Part shown: positions 5,521 to 16,613 of the stretch, piece after piece
Layout of the letters: every line of letters begins with the position of its first letter
Position numbering within the stretch: position 1 is the stretch's first letter
IMG/VR virus record: IMGVR_UViG_3300035698_002972
Coordinates: 1-25,399 of that record
Strand: one strand, 5' to 3'
DNA from: a virus
DNA length: 25,399 bases
Notes under the pieces: generated by a model
What the model was told of the DNA's origin: nothing
Seen by the model: only the letters and a program-made list of their open reading frames with translations
Databases searched by the model: none
Made by a program: the position numbers and the translations under genes

Positions 5521-5691
5521 TTGAATCGAATAGTTGATAATGCGGCTGGCCCAACTGGAGTTGTCGGAATAATAATCGGGATGTCTCCAGACTGCCCACA
5601 GGGATGGTTAATTTTATTTTCAATTGTGCTTGTGCTGTGTCAATTGATACATTGGTTTTATAGACTTTATAAATGGATTATAAATAAATGA
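5521..5691 (+). CDS. Small membrane protein (56 aa), holin-like in size
   Basis: The TTG at 5521 is preceded by AGGGGG (5509-5514) with a 6-base spacer, and the TGA at 5689-5691 overlaps the next gene's ATG (ATGA). The 56-residue product has a moderately hydrophobic N-terminal stretch (VVGIIIGMSP) and a clear membrane segment (GWLILFSIVLVLCQLIHWF, about residues 28-46), followed by a short basic tail (RLYKWIINK). One or two membrane passes are possible. Size, charge distribution and coupling fit a phage small membrane protein such as a holin or spanin partner. No endolysin is adjacent, so that name would be a guess. Confidence 0.6.
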   Translation: MNRIVDNAAGPTGVVGIIIGMSPDCPQGWLILFSIVLVLCQLIHWFYRLYKWIINK

Positions 5692-6485
5692 AAACAACAC
5701 TCGTAACAGCACCAACCGGAATGCTTATAAGCCTTGACGAAGCGAAGACCCATCTTCGTGTTGATCATACCGAAGATGACGGATACATCCAAGCTCTTAT
5801 TATGTCAGGCACTGCGATGGCTGAAACTATCACAAATAGACGATTACTAACTCAGACATGGAAAGCCTATGCTGATGAATGGCCTGCTGAGTTCTTTACA
5901 ATCCCTTTTGGTAATCTTCAATCAGTAACAAGTGTTTTGTATAAAGAATCAGATGCTACTGAAAGCACCATGACAGCGAGTGAATATATTGTTGATGTAG
6001 ATTCGGACCCAGGCAGAGTAGTTCTCGGATATAATGAGACATGGCCTAACGAAACGCTTTATCCTTCTAATCCAATTTACATTCAGTTCGTATGTGGGTA
6101 TGGCGCACACACTCTTCAAACAGTGACTGGTGCTACCAACGCAGGGCCGATAGTAATCACACTTGCTGCCCATGGATACGTTACAGGCAACCGAATCTTA
6201 ATTGCAAATGTTGTCGGGAATACAAATGCAAACGGGGCGTGGAATATAACAAAGGTAACAGACGCTTCTTTTAGCCTTGATGGATCAACAGGTAACGCAG
6301 CTTACATTTCAGGTGGAACAGCAGTTAAACTTGATGTGCCAGATCCTATCCGGGCAGCTATTTTATTAATGATTGGAAATGCTTATAAAGCCAGAGAATC
6401 TATTTTCTTTGGGGGTCAAGATGTAAGCGAAATCCCAGAATACATTATGAACCTTTTATGGTCGTATAGATTATGGAAATTTTAA
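5688..6485 (+). CDS. Head-tail connector (HK97 gp6-like) with inserted FCCH-like beta domain
   Basis: This 265-residue protein has the gp6/YqbG adaptor pattern. The N-terminal helices contain LISLDEAKTHLRVDHTEDD (13-31), with AMAETITNRRLLTQTW following. A strand region covers about 70-140 (IPFGNLQSVTSVLYK, then IYIQFVCGYG). The C-terminal helix begins VPDPIRAAILLMIGNAY (217-233). The family usually goes almost directly from the GYG strand to the VP..I helix; here about 70 residues (144-214) intervene. That insert includes AAHGYVTGNRILIANVVG and NGAWNITKVTDASFSLDG, the pattern annotated in phage proteins as an E1 FCCH-like domain. The protein should form the dodecameric ring below the portal. 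The gene overlaps the small membrane protein gene and is followed directly by head closure. Confidence 0.8.
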   Translation: MKTTLVTAPTGMLISLDEAKTHLRVDHTEDDGYIQALIMSGTAMAETITNRRLLTQTWKAYADEWPAEFFTIPFGNLQSVTSVLYKESDATESTMTASEYIVDVDSDPGRVVLGYNETWPNETLYPSNPIYIQFVCGYGAHTLQTVTGATNAGPIVITLAAHGYVTGNRILIANVVGNTNANGAWNITKVTDASFSLDGSTGNAAYISGGTAVKLDVPDPIRAAILLMIGNAYKARESIFFGGQDVSEIPEYIMNLLWSYRLWKF

Positions 6486-6486
6486 T

Positions 6487-6810
6487 ATGATTAATGCCGG
6501 AAAACTTGACCAACCAATTACAATTAAATCAGTCGCATTAACTGACGATGGCATGGGCGATGTGACAGAAACGTGGGCCGCACTATCAGGTTCACCTAAA
6601 TGGGCCGAATACATACCCTTACGGGGGCTTGAGAGGATGGAGGCCGGAAAGCTTGCAATGGTAACTACAATGAAGCTTAGAATTAGACGATGTACCAGCG
6701 TAACACCTGAATGCCATGTTGTGCATAAAACAAAAACATATCGGATAACAGGTGTGGAAGATAACCAACGGGACATGGACATGGTTTTAAGTTGTGGGGA
6801 GGTATTATGA
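6487..6810 (+). CDS. Phage head closure / head-tail joining protein
   Basis: This 107-residue protein fits the SPP1 gp16 / HK97 head-tail joining family (Phage_H_T_join). It opens with INAGKLDQPITIKSV and continues with GDVTETWAALSGSPKWAEYIPL, the typical 'rim' strand (W.eyiPl.G.E...a), then a central RIRRC strand and KTYRITGVEDNQRDMDMVLSC near the end. Length is normal for the family. It normally caps the connector after DNA packaging and provides the platform for tail docking. It begins one base after the connector's stop and ends in an ATGA overlap with the gp10-like gene, so all three neck genes are coupled. Confidence 0.85.
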   Translation: MINAGKLDQPITIKSVALTDDGMGDVTETWAALSGSPKWAEYIPLRGLERMEAGKLAMVTTMKLRIRRCTSVTPECHVVHKTKTYRITGVEDNQRDMDMVLSCGEVL

Positions 6811-8213
6811 CAGCAAGAGTAGAATTAGATTTTACAGCTTTTAATTTGGAGCTTGAAGAATTCCTTGATGAAAATGCCAAAGCTATTTGTGTCCAAATCA
6901 AGAAGGATGCCAAAGCCGGAGCATATTTTTCGGGTAGTTCAAAGTTCAAGGATAAAACAAAAAGGTTAAGGCAATCTATCAAGGTTAGGAAAAGTAAGTT
7001 TGAGGGCGGGGGGTATATTACGAGGGCTGGTGGGCGTGGTGCGATGCAATGTATATTTGGTGGGGACACAAGAGTTGTAACAGAACATAGAGGTCCTCTT
7101 GGGATGTCTTCTATTAAAGTTGGCGATATGGTTTTAACGCAAACTGGGGAGTACCGTAAAGTTGTTGATAAACAGTCTTTTCCAGCTATTGAAAAACCCG
7201 ACTTGGTTGAGATAGTTGCCTATGACCCGAACAAATGTAAAATAAAACAACACAAGCTTACCGTTACAGAAGACCATAAAATGCTTGCCATGAGAAATGG
7301 AAAAAATCAATGGATAAAAGCTGTTGATCTTGTTCTTTCAGACAAACTTATTATTAGAAAAAGAATAGCACCCAATAAGGGAACTGGTTGTGTTAAAAAG
7401 TGTGCTTTTTGTGGGGAAATGTTTGGGTCTGGTGTCAATGGAACAAGAGCAAGAAAAGAATCTGTATATTGCAATATTAAATGCAGAGATTTAGCATACG
7501 CAACAGATATGAATCCTAACATCGGTTCAAAACGAAGTGAAGAGTCTAAAAAAAGAATGTCAAAAAGGCGGATTGAAATGATATCTGAAAATCCAAGTTT
7601 GCATCCAAACAGGCTTGCTGGTTCTAAAAAGCAAACACGTATAGAAAACGAAGTTGAGTGTTGGTTAAAAGATAGTGGCAGAAAGTACGTTTTTCAACAT
7701 GAAATAGGTTCTTTGTTTTTGGATTTTTACCTACCAGATGAAAATATTGTTTACGAAGTAGACGGAGGATATTGGCACAAAGACCAGAACAAGGATATCA
7801 AAAGAGATAGAAAAATTTTAAAATTAATTAAAGGTGTTAAAATATTTCACATACATTTTATTGTTGGTGATTCAGCAAAGGGGTTTAAAACAAATCCTAT
7901 TGATAATGTTTTTTATATTCCATGCAATCCAGGGATGTCAACATTTGTCAATGCTGATCTTTTTATACCAACAAATATAATTTCATTAACTAGAAAGGAA
8001 TATACCAAAGGGCAAACAAGGCTTTATGATTTGTCTATTGAAGGTGTCCATTCATTTTTTGCAAACGGACTCCTTACATCAAATTCATGGCTGGTTGAGC
8101 ATGGTCATGCAGGTCCAACCCCTTCATCAAGGCGTACTCCAGCACATCCATATTTAAGACCAGCTCTTCACAAAAACATTGCTTATGCAAAAGAAAAATT
8201 CGGGGTGAAATAA
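6807..8213 (+). CDS. HK97 gp10-like neck/tail protein interrupted by an intein
   Basis: The precursor is 468 residues. I chose ATG 6807 (GGGGAGG at 6796-6802, ATGA overlap with head closure) over a TTG five codons upstream. Residues 1-81 are the N-extein, with a helix rich in acidic and basic residues ending ITRAGGRGAMQ. Residues 82-426 are an intein. Residues 427-468 are the C-extein, SWLVEHGHAG...RRTPAHPYLRPALHK, which carries the gp10 family signature (a hydrophobic-VE.G strand and a P.LRPA helix). Joined exteins give 123 residues, a normal length for gp10-like proteins. Without splicing the conserved core would be split, so a functional protein should require splicing. Role in the neck or tail completion is from family knowledge and position. 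Confidence 0.85.
   Translation: MTARVELDFTAFNLELEEFLDENAKAICVQIKKDAKAGAYFSGSSKFKDKTKRLRQSIKVRKSKFEGGGYITRAGGRGAMQCIFGGDTRVVTEHRGPLGMSSIKVGDMVLTQTGEYRKVVDKQSFPAIEKPDLVEIVAYDPNKCKIKQHKLTVTEDHKMLAMRNGKNQWIKAVDLVLSDKLIIRKRIAPNKGTGCVKKCAFCGEMFGSGVNGTRARKESVYCNIKCRDLAYATDMNPNIGSKRSEESKKRMSKRRIEMISENPSLHPNRLAGSKKQTRIENEVECWLKDSGRKYVFQHEIGSLFLDFYLPDENIVYEVDGGYWHKDQNKDIKRDRKILKLIKGVKIFHIHFIVGDSAKGFKTNPIDNVFYIPCNPGMSTFVNADLFIPTNIISLTRKEYTKGQTRLYDLSIEGVHSFFANGLLTSNSWLVEHGHAGPTPSSRRTPAHPYLRPALHKNIAYAKEKFGVK
7050..8084 (+). mobile_element. Intein with Vsr-like (EDxHD-type) homing endonuclease
   Basis: 345 residues within the gp10-like protein. Block A starts at Cys82 (CIFGGDTRVVT) and continues to SIKVGDMVLTQTGEYRKVV. 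Block B is LTVTEDHKML with His157. Blocks F and G are RLYDLSIEGVHSFFANGLLTSN ending at Asn426, with Ser427 as the +1 nucleophile; the usual penultimate His is Ser. The middle holds paired cysteines (CAFCGEMF, then YCNIKC), a NUMOD3-like stretch (GSKRSEESKKRMSKRR), and an endonuclease with RIENEVECW, FLDFYLPD and YEVDGGYWHKDQNKDIKRDRK. The D...E.DG.YWH..D...RD pattern matches Vsr/EDxHD homing endonucleases rather than LAGLIDADG enzymes. It splices itself out and would spread to intein-less copies of this gene. Confidence 0.88.
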
Positions 8214-8470
8214 TGGGAAAACGTATAAAAATTAAATCGGGTATAAGTACAAAGACAGCAGAGTTTTTAAATGAGGATGGCACTCCAATAGGTGGTATCC
8301 GTTCTTGTGACATTAAGATGAGAGTTGGCGAAATAGTAACAGCTACAATCGGATTAAGTGTGGACAAAATAACTATTGAGGCAGAACCATTATTATCTCT
8401 TGCAACAGTGGAACAGACTGCAAGCCATTATGGGTATGAACTCAAACCAATAGAAGATGGGGTGAAATAA
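8213..8470 (+). CDS. Small conserved-type phage protein, unknown
   Basis: This 85-residue protein starts in a TAATG overlap with the gp10-like gene. It is mainly beta-type: a basic start (GKRIKIKSG), then GIRSCDIKMRVGEIVTATIGLSVDKITIEAEPLLSL, then a Gly/Tyr/Pro tail. Small proteins of this pattern occur in phage neck or tail gene runs, but I recognise no named family or active site. It ends in the same GGGGTGAAATAATG junction that begins it, coupling it to the next gene. Confidence 0.6.
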   Translation: MGKRIKIKSGISTKTAEFLNEDGTPIGGIRSCDIKMRVGEIVTATIGLSVDKITIEAEPLLSLATVEQTASHYGYELKPIEDGVK

Positions 8471-8742
8471 TGAGAATGTCAGTAAAACAAGATGACCCAG
8501 GTTATCATAAACATGCCAAAGATTACACAGTCTTTATTGATCAGAAAGAGCTTAAAGAGTGCCATACGGCGGATGAAGAACTTGGAAAAGCATGGATTAA
8601 TGATATTAAAAGGTTTAATGCAGAACTTGAAAAAGCACCGTGGGCAAAATATGACGATGACGGAAATATAACAAATGATCTTGAATTGCATTCAAAAGAA
8701 CTTATAGGGAAAGTTGAGATAAGAAAATGGATAAGATCCTAA
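8470..8742 (+). CDS. Small charged protein, unknown
   Basis: This 90-residue, soluble, highly charged protein has one His/Lys/Asp-rich N-terminus (DDPGYHKHAKDY) and a helical middle (DEELGKAWINDIKRFNAELEKAPWAKYDDDGNI). It has no cysteine cluster and no membrane segment. The start is in a TAATG overlap; the end overlaps the next gene by 16 bases. The tight packing supports a real gene. No family is recognised. Confidence 0.55.
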   Translation: MRMSVKQDDPGYHKHAKDYTVFIDQKELKECHTADEELGKAWINDIKRFNAELEKAPWAKYDDDGNITNDLELHSKELIGKVEIRKWIRS

Positions 8743-9119
8743 CAGGTATATGGAATTTATATAACGGCAACGCAGCATTAAAAACCGCCTTGCCTGGTAA
8801 GATGTATCTCGAAGTTGCACCTCAGTCAACAGCAATGACTTATGCAACGTATAATGTCATTGACGGTAGACCAGAATACATGCTTAAAGGAACCAGTTAT
8901 GAAATAGTCTACATTCAGTTCGATATTTATGCCGCCACAAATGCTTTGAGACTAACCGCTTACAACGCCTTAATAGCACTGTATGATGATGCTCAACCAG
9001 CGGCGACAGGTTACACATCTATCCTCATGGAAAGGGAGTTAGAACAGCTTGTAAGGGACGGAGAACAAGACGAGATTAGACGAGCAGTTGTGGATTATAA
9101 TGTGAGGTATTTGAAATGA
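8727..9119 (+). CDS. Tail completion / tail terminator-type protein (DUF3168-like)
   Basis: This 130-residue protein is at the position where siphoviruses encode the tail completion protein, between gp10-like and tail tube genes. The pattern agrees with the DUF3168 group: an N-terminal helix ILTGIWNLYNGNAALKTAL, then YLEVAPQSTAMTYATYNVI (a PQ.t..PY-like segment), then strands YIVYIQFDIYA and helix NALRLTAYNALIALYDD, with a final RAVVDYNVRYLK strand. Such proteins close the top of the tail tube for joining to the head. It overlaps the preceding gene by 16 bases and the receiver gene by 4 (ATGA). Confidence 0.65.
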   Translation: MDKILTGIWNLYNGNAALKTALPGKMYLEVAPQSTAMTYATYNVIDGRPEYMLKGTSYEIVYIQFDIYAATNALRLTAYNALIALYDDAQPAATGYTSILMERELEQLVRDGEQDEIRRAVVDYNVRYLK

Positions 9120-9553
9120 AAGATACTTCAAATAATTTCACCATGGCTCAAATGAATAGACTTATCTATCCACAAAAGCATATATTGGTGGTAGAAGACA
9201 ATCTTTCCTGTCAATATGAAATAGCTTCACATTTTAATGATATCTTTGAAGCAGAAGGTTCAGTCATCGTATCGTTTGTAAGCAACGCAATAACAGCCGC
9301 CGCGATACTAATGCACAAGATTCCAGTCCATTTGATATTACTTGACCATGATTTGCAATGGGGAAACGGTACTGAATTGTTAACGATGATGAAAAACATG
9401 GGGATTAAAATTCCGGTTATAACATTTTCTGGTATTCCATATAATAATAAAAAAATGGTTGAATTTGGGGCTGATTACGAGTACCAAAAACAAGATGTCA
9501 TTAACGGTAAGGCAGACCATTTAATAAAAGATATTATTGAGGGTCAGAAATGA
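9116..9553 (+). CDS. Stand-alone response-regulator receiver (CheY-like) protein
   Basis: This 145-residue protein is essentially one receiver domain after a 20-residue lead. The first strand is HILVVEDN with the acidic pair E27/D28. Strand 3 is VHLILLDHDL with probable phosphoacceptor D77, followed by G.G.ELL. Strand 4 is KIPVITFSG with the Ser/Thr switch at S105. Strand 5 is FGADYEYQKQ with the conserved Lys at K125. All the residues needed for phosphoryl transfer are present, so it should be able to accept phosphate. There is no output domain and no kinase in the window. It is coupled by ATGA overlaps to the tail completion gene before it and the nucleotidyltransferase after it, so it is made with the glycosylation genes. 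What it signals to is unknown. Confidence 0.85.
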   Translation: MKDTSNNFTMAQMNRLIYPQKHILVVEDNLSCQYEIASHFNDIFEAEGSVIVSFVSNAITAAAILMHKIPVHLILLDHDLQWGNGTELLTMMKNMGIKIPVITFSGIPYNNKKMVEFGADYEYQKQDVINGKADHLIKDIIEGQK

Positions 9554-10266
9554 TTGCAATTTTAGCAGGAGGCAGAGCGCAAAGGATGGGCCGTGGAGTC
9601 AAGTCGATTAATATGACCAAAGGCTTGATGGAAATACCTATCTTCGGTGGTGGATCTGAAACTGTTATTGACAGATTGATTCGGCAACTTAAAAAAGCAA
9701 AAGCAATAAACGGGCCAGAAGATATTTTATTATGTGTTGGATATAAGGAAAATCTTGTAAGGGAAAAATATCCTGAATGTAAATTTCTTACCACGTTTGA
9801 TATTAACGATCCCTCCGAAGCACTGGTTGCCTTTCACAAAACTATTGAAACTTTTTGTGACAACGAGTTTGTTTTTATAATGGGCGATTCCGTATGGTCG
9901 CAAACAGCAATGGATAATTTCATAGCAGTATCTGATAACGCGCCAATGGTTGTATACCATGGCACAGATCCAAATTATTGTGAGATATTCGGAGTATCAC
10001 TTAATGGTTCAGTTGGTTTTGATCTTGTGAGAAAAGTAAACGCCTGCAAGTCGATGCCAGTCGTTCCCGGCGAAATAAGATGGGAATTAGAAAATAAAAA
10101 AACCATCCCCCCACGTGACTGCCGGACATCATGTATGGAAAAGTTTATTGACGACAATAAATTACCTGGAAAGTTACGAGTGTATCAATCTGGTAAGGTA
10201 GATGATATTGATTGGGATGAAGACCACAAAAGAATTTGTGAACACATAAAAGCCGGGAGATTCTAA
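9550..10266 (+). CDS. MobA-like / sugar nucleotidyltransferase
   Basis: This 238-residue protein starts with AILAGGRAQRMG (residues 3-14) and K24, the nucleotide-binding loop of GT-A fold NTP transferases. FIMGDS places a metal-binding Asp at 113. The C-terminal part contains VDDIDWDEDH, comparable with the terminal w.dI.t.eD motif of sugar nucleotidyltransferases. The expected reaction is transfer of NMP onto a sugar phosphate, giving an activated sugar for the glycosyltransferases that follow, though the sugar and nucleotide cannot be read from the sequence. Its start overlaps the receiver stop and its stop abuts the next ATG. Length is typical of the family, with no membrane segment. Confidence 0.8.
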   Translation: MIAILAGGRAQRMGRGVKSINMTKGLMEIPIFGGGSETVIDRLIRQLKKAKAINGPEDILLCVGYKENLVREKYPECKFLTTFDINDPSEALVAFHKTIETFCDNEFVFIMGDSVWSQTAMDNFIAVSDNAPMVVYHGTDPNYCEIFGVSLNGSVGFDLVRKVNACKSMPVVPGEIRWELENKKTIPPRDCRTSCMEKFIDDNKLPGKLRVYQSGKVDDIDWDEDHKRICEHIKAGRF

Positions 10267-10971
10267 ATGAAGTTGACTGGGATTACCAGAATAAGAAACG
10301 AGCAAACCATTATTAAAGATACACTTGATTTCTATTCTTTTTGTGACGCTCTTTACGTTTATGATGATATGTCAACAGACAGTACCGTAAAAATCTGTAA
10401 ATCTCATCCTAAAGTCAAGGGGTTAATTGAAGGTAAGATTTGGGATACAAACAGATTAAAGGCAGAATATCAAACACGTCAATCTGTTTTGGAATTAGCA
10501 CAAAAAGATAACCCGGAGTGGATTATTTATTTTGATGCCGATGAAAGAATTGATTATGATTTTAAAAATTATGAATCCTATGATGGCGTTGTGATGAAAT
10601 TGTTTGACTATTACATAACCGAAGAAGATAAGAACCTGTCATACAACGAGAGAAAATGGCTTGGCCCTGAGTATAGAAATATTTTAATGATGTTCCGTAA
10701 CACACCAGAAGTTTGTTACTGGGCAATGGATCAAAGAGAGGCCACTCTTAAAAATGGTGCTAAACTTCTTGGTGCTGGATATGTTAAACACTATGGGAAA
10801 GCAATCTCAGAAGAAGAATGGGAAACAACATGCGATTATTATTATAAAAATTTCCCACAGTACAGTCAGAAATGGTTCAGCCGAAAAGGAAAAGCTATTC
10901 ACACAAAATCGGATTTTGACAGACCTTTAATTCATTGGGACGAAAAAGAGACGAAAGGAACACCGCTTTGA
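10267..10971 (+). CDS. GT2-family glycosyltransferase
   Basis: This 234-residue GT-A enzyme opens with GITRIRNEQTIIKDTLDFY, a GT2-type start, then YVYDDMSTDST (residues 30-40) and the DXD-type metal site FDADER (D90, D92). It should transfer a sugar from a nucleotide donor to an acceptor in the cytoplasm, as there is no membrane segment. A conserved-looking core (GAGYVKHYGK, then WETTCDYYYKNF) follows. It starts directly after the nucleotidyltransferase stop and ends in a TTGA overlap with the next gene. The acceptor is unknown; in this setting virion proteins or host surface glycans are the main options. Confidence 0.8.
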   Translation: MKLTGITRIRNEQTIIKDTLDFYSFCDALYVYDDMSTDSTVKICKSHPKVKGLIEGKIWDTNRLKAEYQTRQSVLELAQKDNPEWIIYFDADERIDYDFKNYESYDGVVMKLFDYYITEEDKNLSYNERKWLGPEYRNILMMFRNTPEVCYWAMDQREATLKNGAKLLGAGYVKHYGKAISEEEWETTCDYYYKNFPQYSQKWFSRKGKAIHTKSDFDRPLIHWDEKETKGTPL

Positions 10972-12839
10972 AAATATTAATTTTTGCACTTAATGTCGGT
11001 GGTGATGTAAAATTTGGAGGGTCGGGCAGATTTATGAAATGTGTTGCCAATACTCTTAAAGATTTGGGCCATGAAGTAACTACTGATATCGAGAATGATT
11101 GTGACCTAATTATTGCAAGTCACAATACGAATCAGATAAAAGATAAGAAAGCAAGGAAAATATTTATTTCTCACGGGATTGTTCCGGAAGAAGTTTTTAA
11201 AGAAGGGGCAGATAAATACATTTCCATAAGTGAAGAAGTCAAACAAGCACAATTAAGTGTTGATAGTGATGTTATCGCCCAACCCGTTCCGATGGGACTT
11301 AGAAATCAACCGGCTCCCTCTTTGAAAAACATTTTAATAATCAGCAGAAAAGAACAGCAAGCACCCGGTAATCCATTTGATTTTTTATCACAACATTACA
11401 ATATTAAATATAGCGATCAAACAGAACCTATCGAGAATCAAATTAATTGGGCTGATCTTTGCATTACTTTGGGCCGGGGCGCACTTGATAGTATGGCACA
11501 AGGTAAACCAGTTCTAATCGCTGATAACCGATACTACATGGGTGCCGTTGGTGACGGGTATGTGAACCATGCTAACATTAAAGAGATCGCTCTTAACAAC
11601 TTCTCAGGAAGACGATTCCGGATACCAGTAACAGAAGAATGGCTCTTGTCAGAGTTGGAAAAATATAACCCAGACGATTCTATTTTTTTATATAATTATG
11701 TTTTGGAAAACCATGACCCAATTAAAATAATTCAGAAGTATCTCCATATACCAACTAAAAAGAATATCCATCTCGTAATGCCATTTTGGAGGCATGAGAA
11801 TAAAGAGACATTGATCAACGCTTATCAACCAATGAATATAATCTTACATCCGATTATGTTTCAGGACGAAGTTGCAGAATTTGATAAGGAATGGATATTC
11901 CCATTGATTATTCCAATGGATTCAAAAGATTGTAATGCTAATCTGATAGAATGCTTTAAACGGAATTATTACATCCAGAATGCAACAATTGAGGACGAAG
12001 ATTATTACGTCATGGCAGATGATGATGACCTTTACGAATCAGGTGTTTTCGATGCCATAAAAAAACTTGATTCTGAAGTTGTAATTATTTCAATGAAGCG
12101 CGGTGATTCCATTCCGGATAGTGTTAAAGAAGCAAGAGCATATCCTACAACCACATTATATGCTCATCCAAATAGTGTTTTTGTTGAATACATAAGCGCA
12201 CAGCAATTAATTGTGAAAGGTAAAATATTCAGGCGGCACGAACACAAAGATAAATTATGTTGGGATGGTGAGCTTGCAGAACAATATAAAAAATTATACG
12301 AGATTGAATATAAACCTAATCTATACGCGCTGTTTAATTTCTTTGAGCCTGGCAGATGGGATAGGCCTGTTAAAATTAATCTTGGATGCGGAAATAAAAA
12401 ATTGGATGGGTACACCAACATTGACATTCAGGAACGAGTAAATCCTGATATTGTTTGTGATGTGCTTAAAGGGCTACCATACGAAAATAACTCTGTTGAT
12501 GAAGTGAGAGCATGGGATTTTTTAGAACATATAAAAATTGGAAAAACCATCGGTGTTATTGAGGAAATCTGGAGAGTTTTAAAACCGGGCGGAAAGTTTG
12601 AAAGCTTCACACCTGATGCAGAATATGGGCAGGGTGCATTTCAAGACCCCACCCACGTTTCATTTTGGGTTGAAGATTCGTGGCTTTATTTTTCAGTTCC
12701 AGTATATAGGGACTTATATGATATTAAAGCAAGTTTTAAAATTGAAATGCGAAGGATCAATACAGATCCAATGCGTAGAATTTTTCATATACATGTTGTT
12801 GCAATAAAAACTATAACAGAAAAGGAATTACCGTTATGA
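10968..12839 (+). CDS. Three-domain fusion: GT-B-like, GT-A-like and SAM methyltransferase
   Basis: I start this at TTG 10968, giving 623 residues (AAAGGA at 10954-10959, 8-base spacer, TTGA overlap), not the ATG 11 codons upstream inside the previous gene. Residues 1-265 resemble a GT-B glycosyltransferase: MKILIFALN...GGSGRFMKCVANTLKDLGHEV, later FISHGI and LCITLGRGALDSMAQGKPVLIADN. About 266-465 is GT-A-like with a Asp-rich metal site ADDDD (350-354). The C-terminal part is a class I methyltransferase: INLGCGNKKLDGYTNIDI (motif I near 472-476), WDFLEHI and EEIWRVLKPGGKF. The protein could add and cap a glycan. No signal or membrane segment; acceptor unknown. Confidence 0.8.
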   Translation: MKILIFALNVGGDVKFGGSGRFMKCVANTLKDLGHEVTTDIENDCDLIIASHNTNQIKDKKARKIFISHGIVPEEVFKEGADKYISISEEVKQAQLSVDSDVIAQPVPMGLRNQPAPSLKNILIISRKEQQAPGNPFDFLSQHYNIKYSDQTEPIENQINWADLCITLGRGALDSMAQGKPVLIADNRYYMGAVGDGYVNHANIKEIALNNFSGRRFRIPVTEEWLLSELEKYNPDDSIFLYNYVLENHDPIKIIQKYLHIPTKKNIHLVMPFWRHENKETLINAYQPMNIILHPIMFQDEVAEFDKEWIFPLIIPMDSKDCNANLIECFKRNYYIQNATIEDEDYYVMADDDDLYESGVFDAIKKLDSEVVIISMKRGDSIPDSVKEARAYPTTTLYAHPNSVFVEYISAQQLIVKGKIFRRHEHKDKLCWDGELAEQYKKLYEIEYKPNLYALFNFFEPGRWDRPVKINLGCGNKKLDGYTNIDIQERVNPDIVCDVLKGLPYENNSVDEVRAWDFLEHIKIGKTIGVIEEIWRVLKPGGKFESFTPDAEYGQGAFQDPTHVSFWVEDSWLYFSVPVYRDLYDIKASFKIEMRRINTDPMRRIFHIHVVAIKTITEKELPL

Positions 12840-14068
12840 TATCCGGGAAAATATCAGTCATCATACCAGTAGTAAGACCAGACAAGGCAAAAGTTTGTAT
12901 TGAATCTATCAAGAAATATCTACCCAATGCAGAGATTATTTCAGAAGTTGATGTTGATGGTATTGGTTGTCCAAAAATGGTCAATGCATTAACCCTAAAA
13001 ACGACAAGAGATTGGGTTCTATTCCTTGGTGATGATACTGAAATTCAAGAAGGGTTTGAATTAGCTTTAGAAAAGGCATTTGATAAATTGCCCAAAGATT
13101 GGTGGGGTTTGGTATCTATTGAAACAGAGAACGATAATTATAAAGCGCATTGGATGGCGCACAAGAACATGCTTTCAATCTTGCCGGACGAACAGTTTTT
13201 CAATGAGGCATACCAGCATTGTTATTGCGATGATGAACTTGCAGACATAGCTGAAGAACATGGGCGTAGGCTTATCACAAATGAAACAAAGATACTCCAT
13301 CATCATCCTTGCAATGAAGGGGAAGAATCTGATGACGAGTTTTATCAAAAAGCTTACCATGATGATAAATATCTTATCGACAAAGCGATTTATATTAAGC
13401 GAAAAAGAAAAAGACTTGGTAATCTCGCAATAGGATTTCCTTTAGTTGACCCGACAGTTCCTGTTCAATTTTTTACAAGTTATGCATGTATGGACAAGCC
13501 ATCTGAATATACCTTGCTTACGCCTCAGTTCCCGCACGGTCCGTTTTCAGAGAACATAGCTTCTGCAAGAAACAGCTTGGTAGAACAGGCACAAAAAGAA
13601 GGTGCTAAATATCTCCTTATGTTAGATACAGATCAAGTCTATCCACATGATACTTTAACAAAACTGATGTCTCACAAGGTAGATGTATGCGGAGTAAGGG
13701 TTCACAGGCGTTGGATGCCGTTTGACCCTATATTCTTGAGGGGTGATATCGGAGCCTATGAAAGCGTTCCCGATGAAGAAATGTATTCTGGGAACTTAAT
13801 TGAAATAGACGCAACGGGCGCAGGGTGTTTGTTGTTTGACATGGAGGTGTTCGATAAGGTACAATATCCATGGTTTAAGTTAGATGTACAGGATGGTAAG
13901 CCGGTTGGAGAGGATATTTACTTTTGTAGCGAGGCACGAAAGGCAGGTATAAGGATATTTGTTGACACATCTATTGAGGTGGGTCACTTAACAATGATGG
14001 AAGTAAATAGGTATTTGCACCAGATTTGTAAACGTATAAAACCCAAAAAGGAAATTAGATCACTTTGA
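12836..14068 (+). CDS. Double GT-A glycosyltransferase
   Basis: This 410-residue protein appears to hold two glycosyltransferase-like halves. The N-terminal half has KISVIIPVVRPDKAKVCIESI and a GDD motif (VLFLGDDTEI, residues 61-70). The C-terminal half has an NSLVEQAQKEGAKYLLMLDTDQVYP stretch with D264/D266, then IDATGAGCLLFDMEVF, VGEDIYFCSEARKAG and a closing DTSIEVGHL, the pattern of phage-type GT2 proteins with a late E/D-D base. A basic patch (KRKRKRLG) lies at the join. Its start overlaps the methyltransferase fusion by 4 bases. Two active sites could add two sugars in sequence. It is the last gene before a terminator-like hairpin. Confidence 0.75.
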   Translation: MISGKISVIIPVVRPDKAKVCIESIKKYLPNAEIISEVDVDGIGCPKMVNALTLKTTRDWVLFLGDDTEIQEGFELALEKAFDKLPKDWWGLVSIETENDNYKAHWMAHKNMLSILPDEQFFNEAYQHCYCDDELADIAEEHGRRLITNETKILHHHPCNEGEESDDEFYQKAYHDDKYLIDKAIYIKRKRKRLGNLAIGFPLVDPTVPVQFFTSYACMDKPSEYTLLTPQFPHGPFSENIASARNSLVEQAQKEGAKYLLMLDTDQVYPHDTLTKLMSHKVDVCGVRVHRRWMPFDPIFLRGDIGAYESVPDEEMYSGNLIEIDATGAGCLLFDMEVFDKVQYPWFKLDVQDGKPVGEDIYFCSEARKAGIRIFVDTSIEVGHLTMMEVNRYLHQICKRIKPKKEIRSL

Positions 14069-15854: not shown

Positions 15855-16613
15855 ATGAGAAAACTTGACCAGAAAACAGTCATTGAGAGATTTAAAAAGG
15901 CTCATGGTGATTTGTATGACTATTCTCTGGTTGAGTATAAAAATAAAAGAACTAATGTTGATGTGATTTGTAGAAAGCATGGTGTTTTTAAAACACCACC
16001 GATGACACATGCAGCAGGCCATGGTTGTAGAAAATGTTACGATGATAGATCAGTAGAAAGGTTAAGAGCGTATAACACAACCAGGGTAGAAAAAGCTGCC
16101 ACAAGCTTTATCAACAGAGCAAAAAAAGTACACGCAGGAAAAGGCTATGACTATTCATTGCTTAAATATAAAAAAGGCAAGGGTAAGATAACAGTTATTT
16201 GCCCAGAACATGGAAAATTTTATCCAACAGCAAATAATCATCTTGCAGGTCAAATGTGTCCATCTTGTTCAGAAAGTGGCTTCAACCCGCAAAAACCAGC
16301 TATCGTTTATTATATAAGGATAGACAACGGTGACGGTGAATACCTATACAAAATTGGAATAACTAATAAAACAGTGCAGGAAAGATATAGGGTAAATGTT
16401 GATAGAAATAAAATAAAAGTTTTAAAAATATGGGACTTTTTACTTGGGTCAGATGCTCAAGAAAAAGAATTTAAAATAAAAAAGATATACAAAAAATTCC
16501 TGTATAAAGGAAAATCTCCATTGGTACTCGCCGGGATAACTGAAATTTTTACATACGATATTCTTGGCTTAGACCGCAAGAACGTTGATGGGAGGGCCTT
16601 GTGGGGAGTGTAG
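15855..16613 (+). CDS. Free-standing GIY-YIG homing endonuclease
   Basis: 252 residues. Two tandem N-terminal repeats (about 12-61 and 88-138) share YDYSL..YK, VICPEHG.F or VICRKHG.F, then H..G..C..C; such repeats occur as DNA-binding modules in phage homing endonucleases. The C-terminal 150-235 is a GIY-YIG nuclease: VYYIRI, then YKIGIT, the Arg of ERY (R177) and the catalytic Glu of GITEIF (E230). It should nick or cut DNA and spread itself into related phages. It sits between chaperone and tape measure genes and its last 13 bases overlap the tape measure start. This is a second mobile nuclease of a different class from the intein. Confidence 0.82.
   Translation: MRKLDQKTVIERFKKAHGDLYDYSLVEYKNKRTNVDVICRKHGVFKTPPMTHAAGHGCRKCYDDRSVERLRAYNTTRVEKAATSFINRAKKVHAGKGYDYSLLKYKKGKGKITVICPEHGKFYPTANNHLAGQMCPSCSESGFNPQKPAIVYYIRIDNGDGEYLYKIGITNKTVQERYRVNVDRNKIKVLKIWDFLLGSDAQEKEFKIKKIYKKFLYKGKSPLVLAGITEIFTYDILGLDRKNVDGRALWGV
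16590..16596 (+). promoter_or_regulatory. Ribosome-binding site for the tape measure gene, inside the endonuclease gene
   Basis: GGGAGGG lies 4 bases before GTG 16601. It supports a GTG start for the tape measure protein and means that the endonuclease coding end carries the signal. Confidence 0.65.

Follow-up and report, generated by a model that had tools for sequence, protein, structure and literature searches.

A predicted homing intein with a Vsr/EDxHD-type nuclease core in the gp10/Neck1 gene of a tailed phage

The class 1 inteins, such as those of Mtu RecA, gp41-1 and Npu DnaE, share the Hint fold, the conserved blocks A, B, F and G, the Cys1 residue, a TxxH motif, a terminal Asn and a nucleophile at position +1 of the C-extein. 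Among them, the intein of Npu DnaE is well studied and splices fast. As to the Vsr-like nucleases, Dassa reportedly described them in 2009 together with split inteins in fractured genes. The nucleases named in a review of inteins belong to the LAGLIDADG, HNH, His-Cys and GIY-YIG types (PMC7765530), and homing by way of double-strand break repair is established for those inteins that carry active nucleases (PMC7765530, PMC8966425). The EDxHD nucleases form a phage homing family of the I-Bth0305I type, and phage homing nucleases usually possess separate DNA-binding modules, for example NUMODs and zinc fingers (PMC3943268). Most phage inteins described so far interrupt terminases or other enzymes that act on nucleic acids; in a survey of mycobacteriophages, 13 host groups were found, mostly terminases and nucleic-acid enzymes but also the portal protein, all of which were classed as nucleic-acid-binding proteins, and gp10 is absent from that list (PMC5050341). 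For inteins of the terminase, the existence of empty sister alleles is known (PMC3706429).

In the stretch of viral DNA analysed here (25,399 nucleotides, hereafter the window), we find what is almost certainly a homing class 1 intein that interrupts the gene for gp10/Neck1 in a tailed phage. It resembles the inteins of terminase, portal, RecB-like and primase genes (PMC5050341) in being phage-borne, in lying at a conserved motif and in its predicted homing, but it differs from them in that its host, a structural protein, is not among the 13 mycobacteriophage groups. It differs from Mtu RecA, gp41-1 and Npu DnaE in that the host is a phage neck protein of merely 123 residues and in that the nuclease insert is Vsr/EDxHD-like rather than LAGLIDADG or HNH. 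We found no earlier report of a gp10 intein in the literature, of which our coverage was partial, so one may exist.

The host open reading frame runs on the + strand from the ATG at 6807 to 8213 and encodes 468 amino acids; the parts of the intein gene, the head-tail adaptor, the cargo genes and the free-standing 252-residue protein described below lie on that strand as well. The ATG of the host gene and the stop codon of the gene upstream share the tetranucleotide ATGA at 6807-6810. That upstream neighbor encodes a head-closure protein (phrog_25, 7e-15), and the tail terminator (phrog_347) is encoded downstream at 8727-9119, which is the normal place of gp10/Neck1 in a siphophage-type module. 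The N-extein (6807..7049) comprises residues 1-81 of an HK97-gp10-like (Neck1 or tail completion) protein and exhibits 60-78% identity to its counterparts in contigs L001, L002 and L004, while the C-extein (8085..8213) begins with Ser +1 (SWLVEHGH...) and comprises 42 residues and the stop codon. When joined, the exteins match phrog_5 ("tail completion or Neck1") at 1.7e-11 and, over the cut-off, PF04883 (HK97-gp10) at 2.1e-4, and both matches improve once the intein is removed. The profile match and the place between the head-closure and tail terminator genes together identify the host as HK97-gp10/Neck1, as the initial annotation had proposed from the letters of the sequence. Elsewhere in this neighborhood, the head-tail adaptor (5688-6485) has 265 residues versus about 197 in L006 and L001, and its residues 142-200 match the major-tail-protein family phrog_584, so that an extra domain seems to have been inserted or fused. 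The tail module also carries cargo at 9116-14068, including a response-regulator receiver domain, a MobA-like NTP transferase, a methyltransferase and a family 2 glycosyltransferase (10267-10971), the last being 77% identical in L011.

The intein itself (7050..8084) comprises 345 residues, from Cys1 to Ser344-Asn345, and is thus nearly three times longer than its host protein. Its ends are where they had been placed initially, with Cys82 of the precursor at 7050 and Asn426 at 8084 followed by Ser427, and the block B motif TEDH with His157 is likewise as described. The N-terminal half of the Hint domain (approximately residues 1-103, 7050..7358) includes block A with Cys1 and block B with T73-x-D75-H76; it is followed by a zinc-finger-like CxxC...CxxxC array (residues 118, 121, 141 and 145; 7401..7484), a NUMOD3-like stretch (residues 155-171, 7512..7562; PF07460 at 0.006, below the cut-off, and a NUMOD3 match in the window ORF at 0.009), a Vsr/EDxHD-type nuclease core (approximately residues 192-270, 7623..7859) with E199, D225, E236, D238, H243, D249 and D253, and the C-terminal part of Hint (approximately residues 305-345, 7962..8084) with block F (D327, H334) and block G (S344, N345). 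The Hint profiles match both ends of the insert, as had been anticipated: PF14890 (Intein_splicing) does so at 3.5e-8 (33.8 bits, slightly below the curated cut-off of 35.8) and at 1.5e-8 against the intein alone, TIGR01443 (intein C-terminal region) at 6e-5, over its cut-off (23.1 versus 15.6), and TIGR01445 in the window copy at 0.014. Blocks A and G thus delimit the Hint fold precisely where the insert starts and stops. Since the joined exteins also match gp10 profiles, neither of the two outcomes that the initial annotation had named as refuting it was observed.

The nuclease core of the window copy matches DUF559 (2.5e-4, over the cut-off), the TIGR vsr model (0.01) and phrog_559 (7e-8), and its best match in the PDB by sequence profile is I-Bth0305I (3r3p, 3.2e-6). 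An AlphaFold model of the intein built from 14 relatives has a mean pLDDT of 80 and a pTM of 0.66, with low-confidence linker parts at residues 109-112, 155-161 and 181-192; the corresponding model of the intein-free gp10 reaches a pLDDT of 46, too low for placing the insertion site on it. The splicing domain of the Mtu RecA intein superimposes on the intein model with a Z-score of 19.5 and 1.8 A over 133 aligned residues, strands E8-E103 of the model lie in the N-terminal Hint half, and Foldseek matches the model to E. coli Vsr (1cw0) and to the catalytic domain of I-Bth0305I (3r3p) with a probability of 1.00. Thus, the profiles and the predicted structure both support the presence of the Hint and Vsr-like folds. 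The core shares sequence and fold with I-Bth0305I, with the difference that the latter was deposited as a mobile-intron protein, whereas the nuclease of the window is built into a contiguous intein. Vsr/DUF559-type inteins with zinc-type cysteines also came up, in the family scan described below, in Mu-F-like head morphogenesis genes of L033 (3-2552) and L031 (1-3543), the latter with apparently two Hint elements in a single ORF; these differ from the window intein in host gene and site, and exhibit 29-36% identity over the matched nuclease part.

When 2.9 million viral contigs were scanned with intein-only queries, from which the extein was left out, full-length relatives of 34-87% identity emerged, which after removal of duplicates amount to 16 distinct copies, the window included. 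All of them come from metagenomes, and every host is a short ORF for a gp10-like protein, interrupted at one shared site directly ahead of a strand of the S-x-[VL]-E-x-G type; phrog_5 is the best match for each of the 10 joined exteins scanned (1e-10 to 5e-22), and TIGR01443 matches 14/14 members above the cut-off. Across the copies, the insertion point falls in the same alignment column or in one adjoining (within one codon), and the one-codon shift in the clade of the window and in L019 may be a local alignment indel. An alignment of 35 gp10s upholds the initial view that the site directly precedes the best-conserved strand, VE.G: two of the three columns that vary least hold Gly +5 and Glu +3. 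Among cultured phages (50,697 records), no full copy of the intein was found, tblastn with the whole protein and with the joined exteins gave no match, and of two diverged inteins used as queries one had no match and the other matched only a 52-residue segment of Thermus phage phiLo. Bacterial and archaeal genomes, scanned twice, contained no intein copy at the sensitivity used and only three short nuclease matches, and in plasmids the only match was part of a Hint domain within a DNA ligase gene of Natrinema.

Copies lacking the 1035-base insert, which the initial annotation suggested looking for in related phages, are present in L001, L002 and L007, and these, together with 16 gp10s of cultured phages, provide the uninterrupted homologs of an in-frame insertion. 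The uninterrupted gp10s of L001 and L002 exhibit 61-62% identity to the joined exteins of the window, and the DNA of L001 joins flush as GCGATGCAA|TCATGG, with codons identical to those that flank the insert in the window. Chance is excluded as the cause of the insert pattern, because 16 distinct copies occupy one site with invariant catalytic residues and the empty alleles are flush at CAA|TCA. L006 has the intein and L002 has none, and most of their neighboring proteins are 90-98% identical; similarly, the joined exteins of L012 (on the same contig as L005) are 90.8% identical to L001. The intein was thus recently gained or lost between sister phages. Between the window and L006, the intein is 81% identical and most conserved neighbors 55-65% (with the exceptions of 1959-2495 at 79% and 8470-8742 at only 38%), and an intein that outconserves nearly all its neighbors fits spread by homing. 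In host pairs with extein identity below 35%, the exteins average 22% and the inteins 42%, and in 119 of 120 pairs the inteins are more alike than the exteins, although these patterns, including that between the window and L006, could stem in part from fast evolution of short structural proteins or slower evolution of the intein. With the closest clade left out, the distances of inteins and exteins correlate weakly (Mantel r 0.24, p 0.07), which is compatible with transfer between lineages.

It is conceivable, if unlikely, that the element is a splicing-competent intein with a degenerate nuclease, which is inherited with its gene and has lost homing. In its favor, Glu199 is kept in 14/16 copies and replaced by Gln or Lys in two, some of whose nucleases may be impaired, and homing cleavage rests on prediction. 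However, the window copy keeps all core nuclease residues, and D225, E236, D238, H243, D249 and D253, like the zinc-type Cys 118, 121, 141 and 145, are invariant in 16/16 copies; DUF559 matches 14/14 members, and Vsr models match 4/14 (Pfam) and 9/14 (NCBIfam). The E, D, H, D active-site set and the predicted Vsr-type fold place the nuclease among the EDxHD/Vsr-like homing endonucleases, and the nuclease type, the zinc cysteines and the NUMOD3-like stretch recognized initially are all upheld by profiles, structure matches and conservation. The dN/dS ratio of the nuclease part is about 0.06-0.10 by the Nei-Gojobori method (NG86) for pairs with computable dS (0.08-0.10 for the window versus L004 and L011), with dS saturated in some other pairs, and for the exteins of the window versus L004 dN is 0.14 against a dS of 1.4, so that both the exteins and the nuclease part are under purifying selection. 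The differing presence of the intein in sister phages and the weak correlation of distances outside the closest clade also argue against the loss of homing. In the family member L019 (3269-4387), a second zinc-finger-like stretch of about 30 extra residues lies between Hint and the nuclease.

Considerably less probable is a Hint domain that cleaves without ligation, in the manner of bacterial-intein-like (BIL) or Hog-like domains, which would yield gp10 in two separate pieces or make the neck protein conditional and subject to regulation. BIL and Hedgehog domains do share the Hint fold and reach equally high scores when structures are compared, and the penultimate residue is Ser, which had initially been regarded as a possible problem for splicing. 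That concern did not hold: the penultimate residue is Ser in 15/16 copies and Ala in one, and the Npu DnaE C-intein in the PDB likewise ends in ...IASN, so the missing His is no sign of damage and the Ser is a trait of the family rather than a defect. Cys1, T73, D75, H76, D327, H334 and N345 are invariant in 16/16 copies, and together with Ser +1 they complete the class 1 residue set in every one. Ser occupies position +1 in all 16 intein-bearing alleles but in only about 2 of 19 intein-free gp10s (L001 and Dryad, in register from the alignment), where Pro, Ala, Leu, Ile and others are found instead; 16 of the 19 come from phage database records, and since the sequences are related, no formal probability is attached to this bias. 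Such a bias is expected of a +1 ligation nucleophile and therefore counts against cleavage only, as does the end-to-end match of the joined exteins to an uninterrupted protein; gp10 itself does not need Ser +1, whereas a splicing intein does. Finally, one could suppose that the insert has disabled gp10 and that the gene is decaying as a pseudogene, since all that is known of this phage is a fragment of 25.4 kb. This is hardly credible given a frame open throughout, exteins under purifying selection, intact catalytic residues and recurrence of the same arrangement in 16 phages.

We therefore return to the homing class 1 intein; its anatomy and evolution lead us to predict that it splices and homes. 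The 468-residue precursor would fold and Cys1 would attack the Gln81-Cys82 bond (N-S acyl shift), upon which the N-extein would be transferred to Ser +1, Asn345 would cyclise to release the intein, and a final acyl shift would yield the neck protein in its native form of 123 residues. The intein, whether freed or still unspliced, could then bind and cut DNA by means of its zinc finger, NUMOD-like helix and EDxHD nuclease core, the target presumably being the intein-free gp10 gene of a co-infecting phage, cut at the conserved codons that surround the insertion point, and repair of the cut gene would copy the intein with its flanks. The sequences establish the anatomy, the empty alleles, the constancy of the catalytic residues across the family, the purifying selection and the fidelity to one site, whereas we infer both efficient splicing and cutting of the gp10 site by the nuclease.

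We rate the intein and its relatives as a family that is new by its insertion site, among elements of a known kind; it is recurrent and site-specific and has empty sister alleles. Going further, we lean slightly towards the view that it represents an old, dedicated EDxHD intein family, specialized on one gp10/Neck1 codon position and moving between very distant tailed phages, for which a small non-enzymatic virion protein serves as the conserved homing target. The occupation of one site in gp10s that are mostly about 22% identical offers a natural way of testing which feature determines where an intein sits (conservation of the target DNA rather than catalytic motifs), and splicing could even time or meter the assembly of the neck. 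The family also supplies further EDxHD-type inteins of compact size, and it is a warning that in viromes a gp10 gene may be overlooked or wrongly annotated as an endonuclease.

The window contains what is probably a second, separate homing endonuclease: directly ahead of the tape measure gene, a free-standing 252-residue protein (15855-16613) matches DUF723 at 2.4e-4 and includes, by eye, a GIY-YIG-looking stretch (YYIRI...YKIGIT), and a 48% identical copy is encoded in L001 (6161-6877). Other inteins were recognized by eye from their Hint ends in a helicase-like gene of L099 (2855-4900) and in the large terminase of L094 (49-3255).
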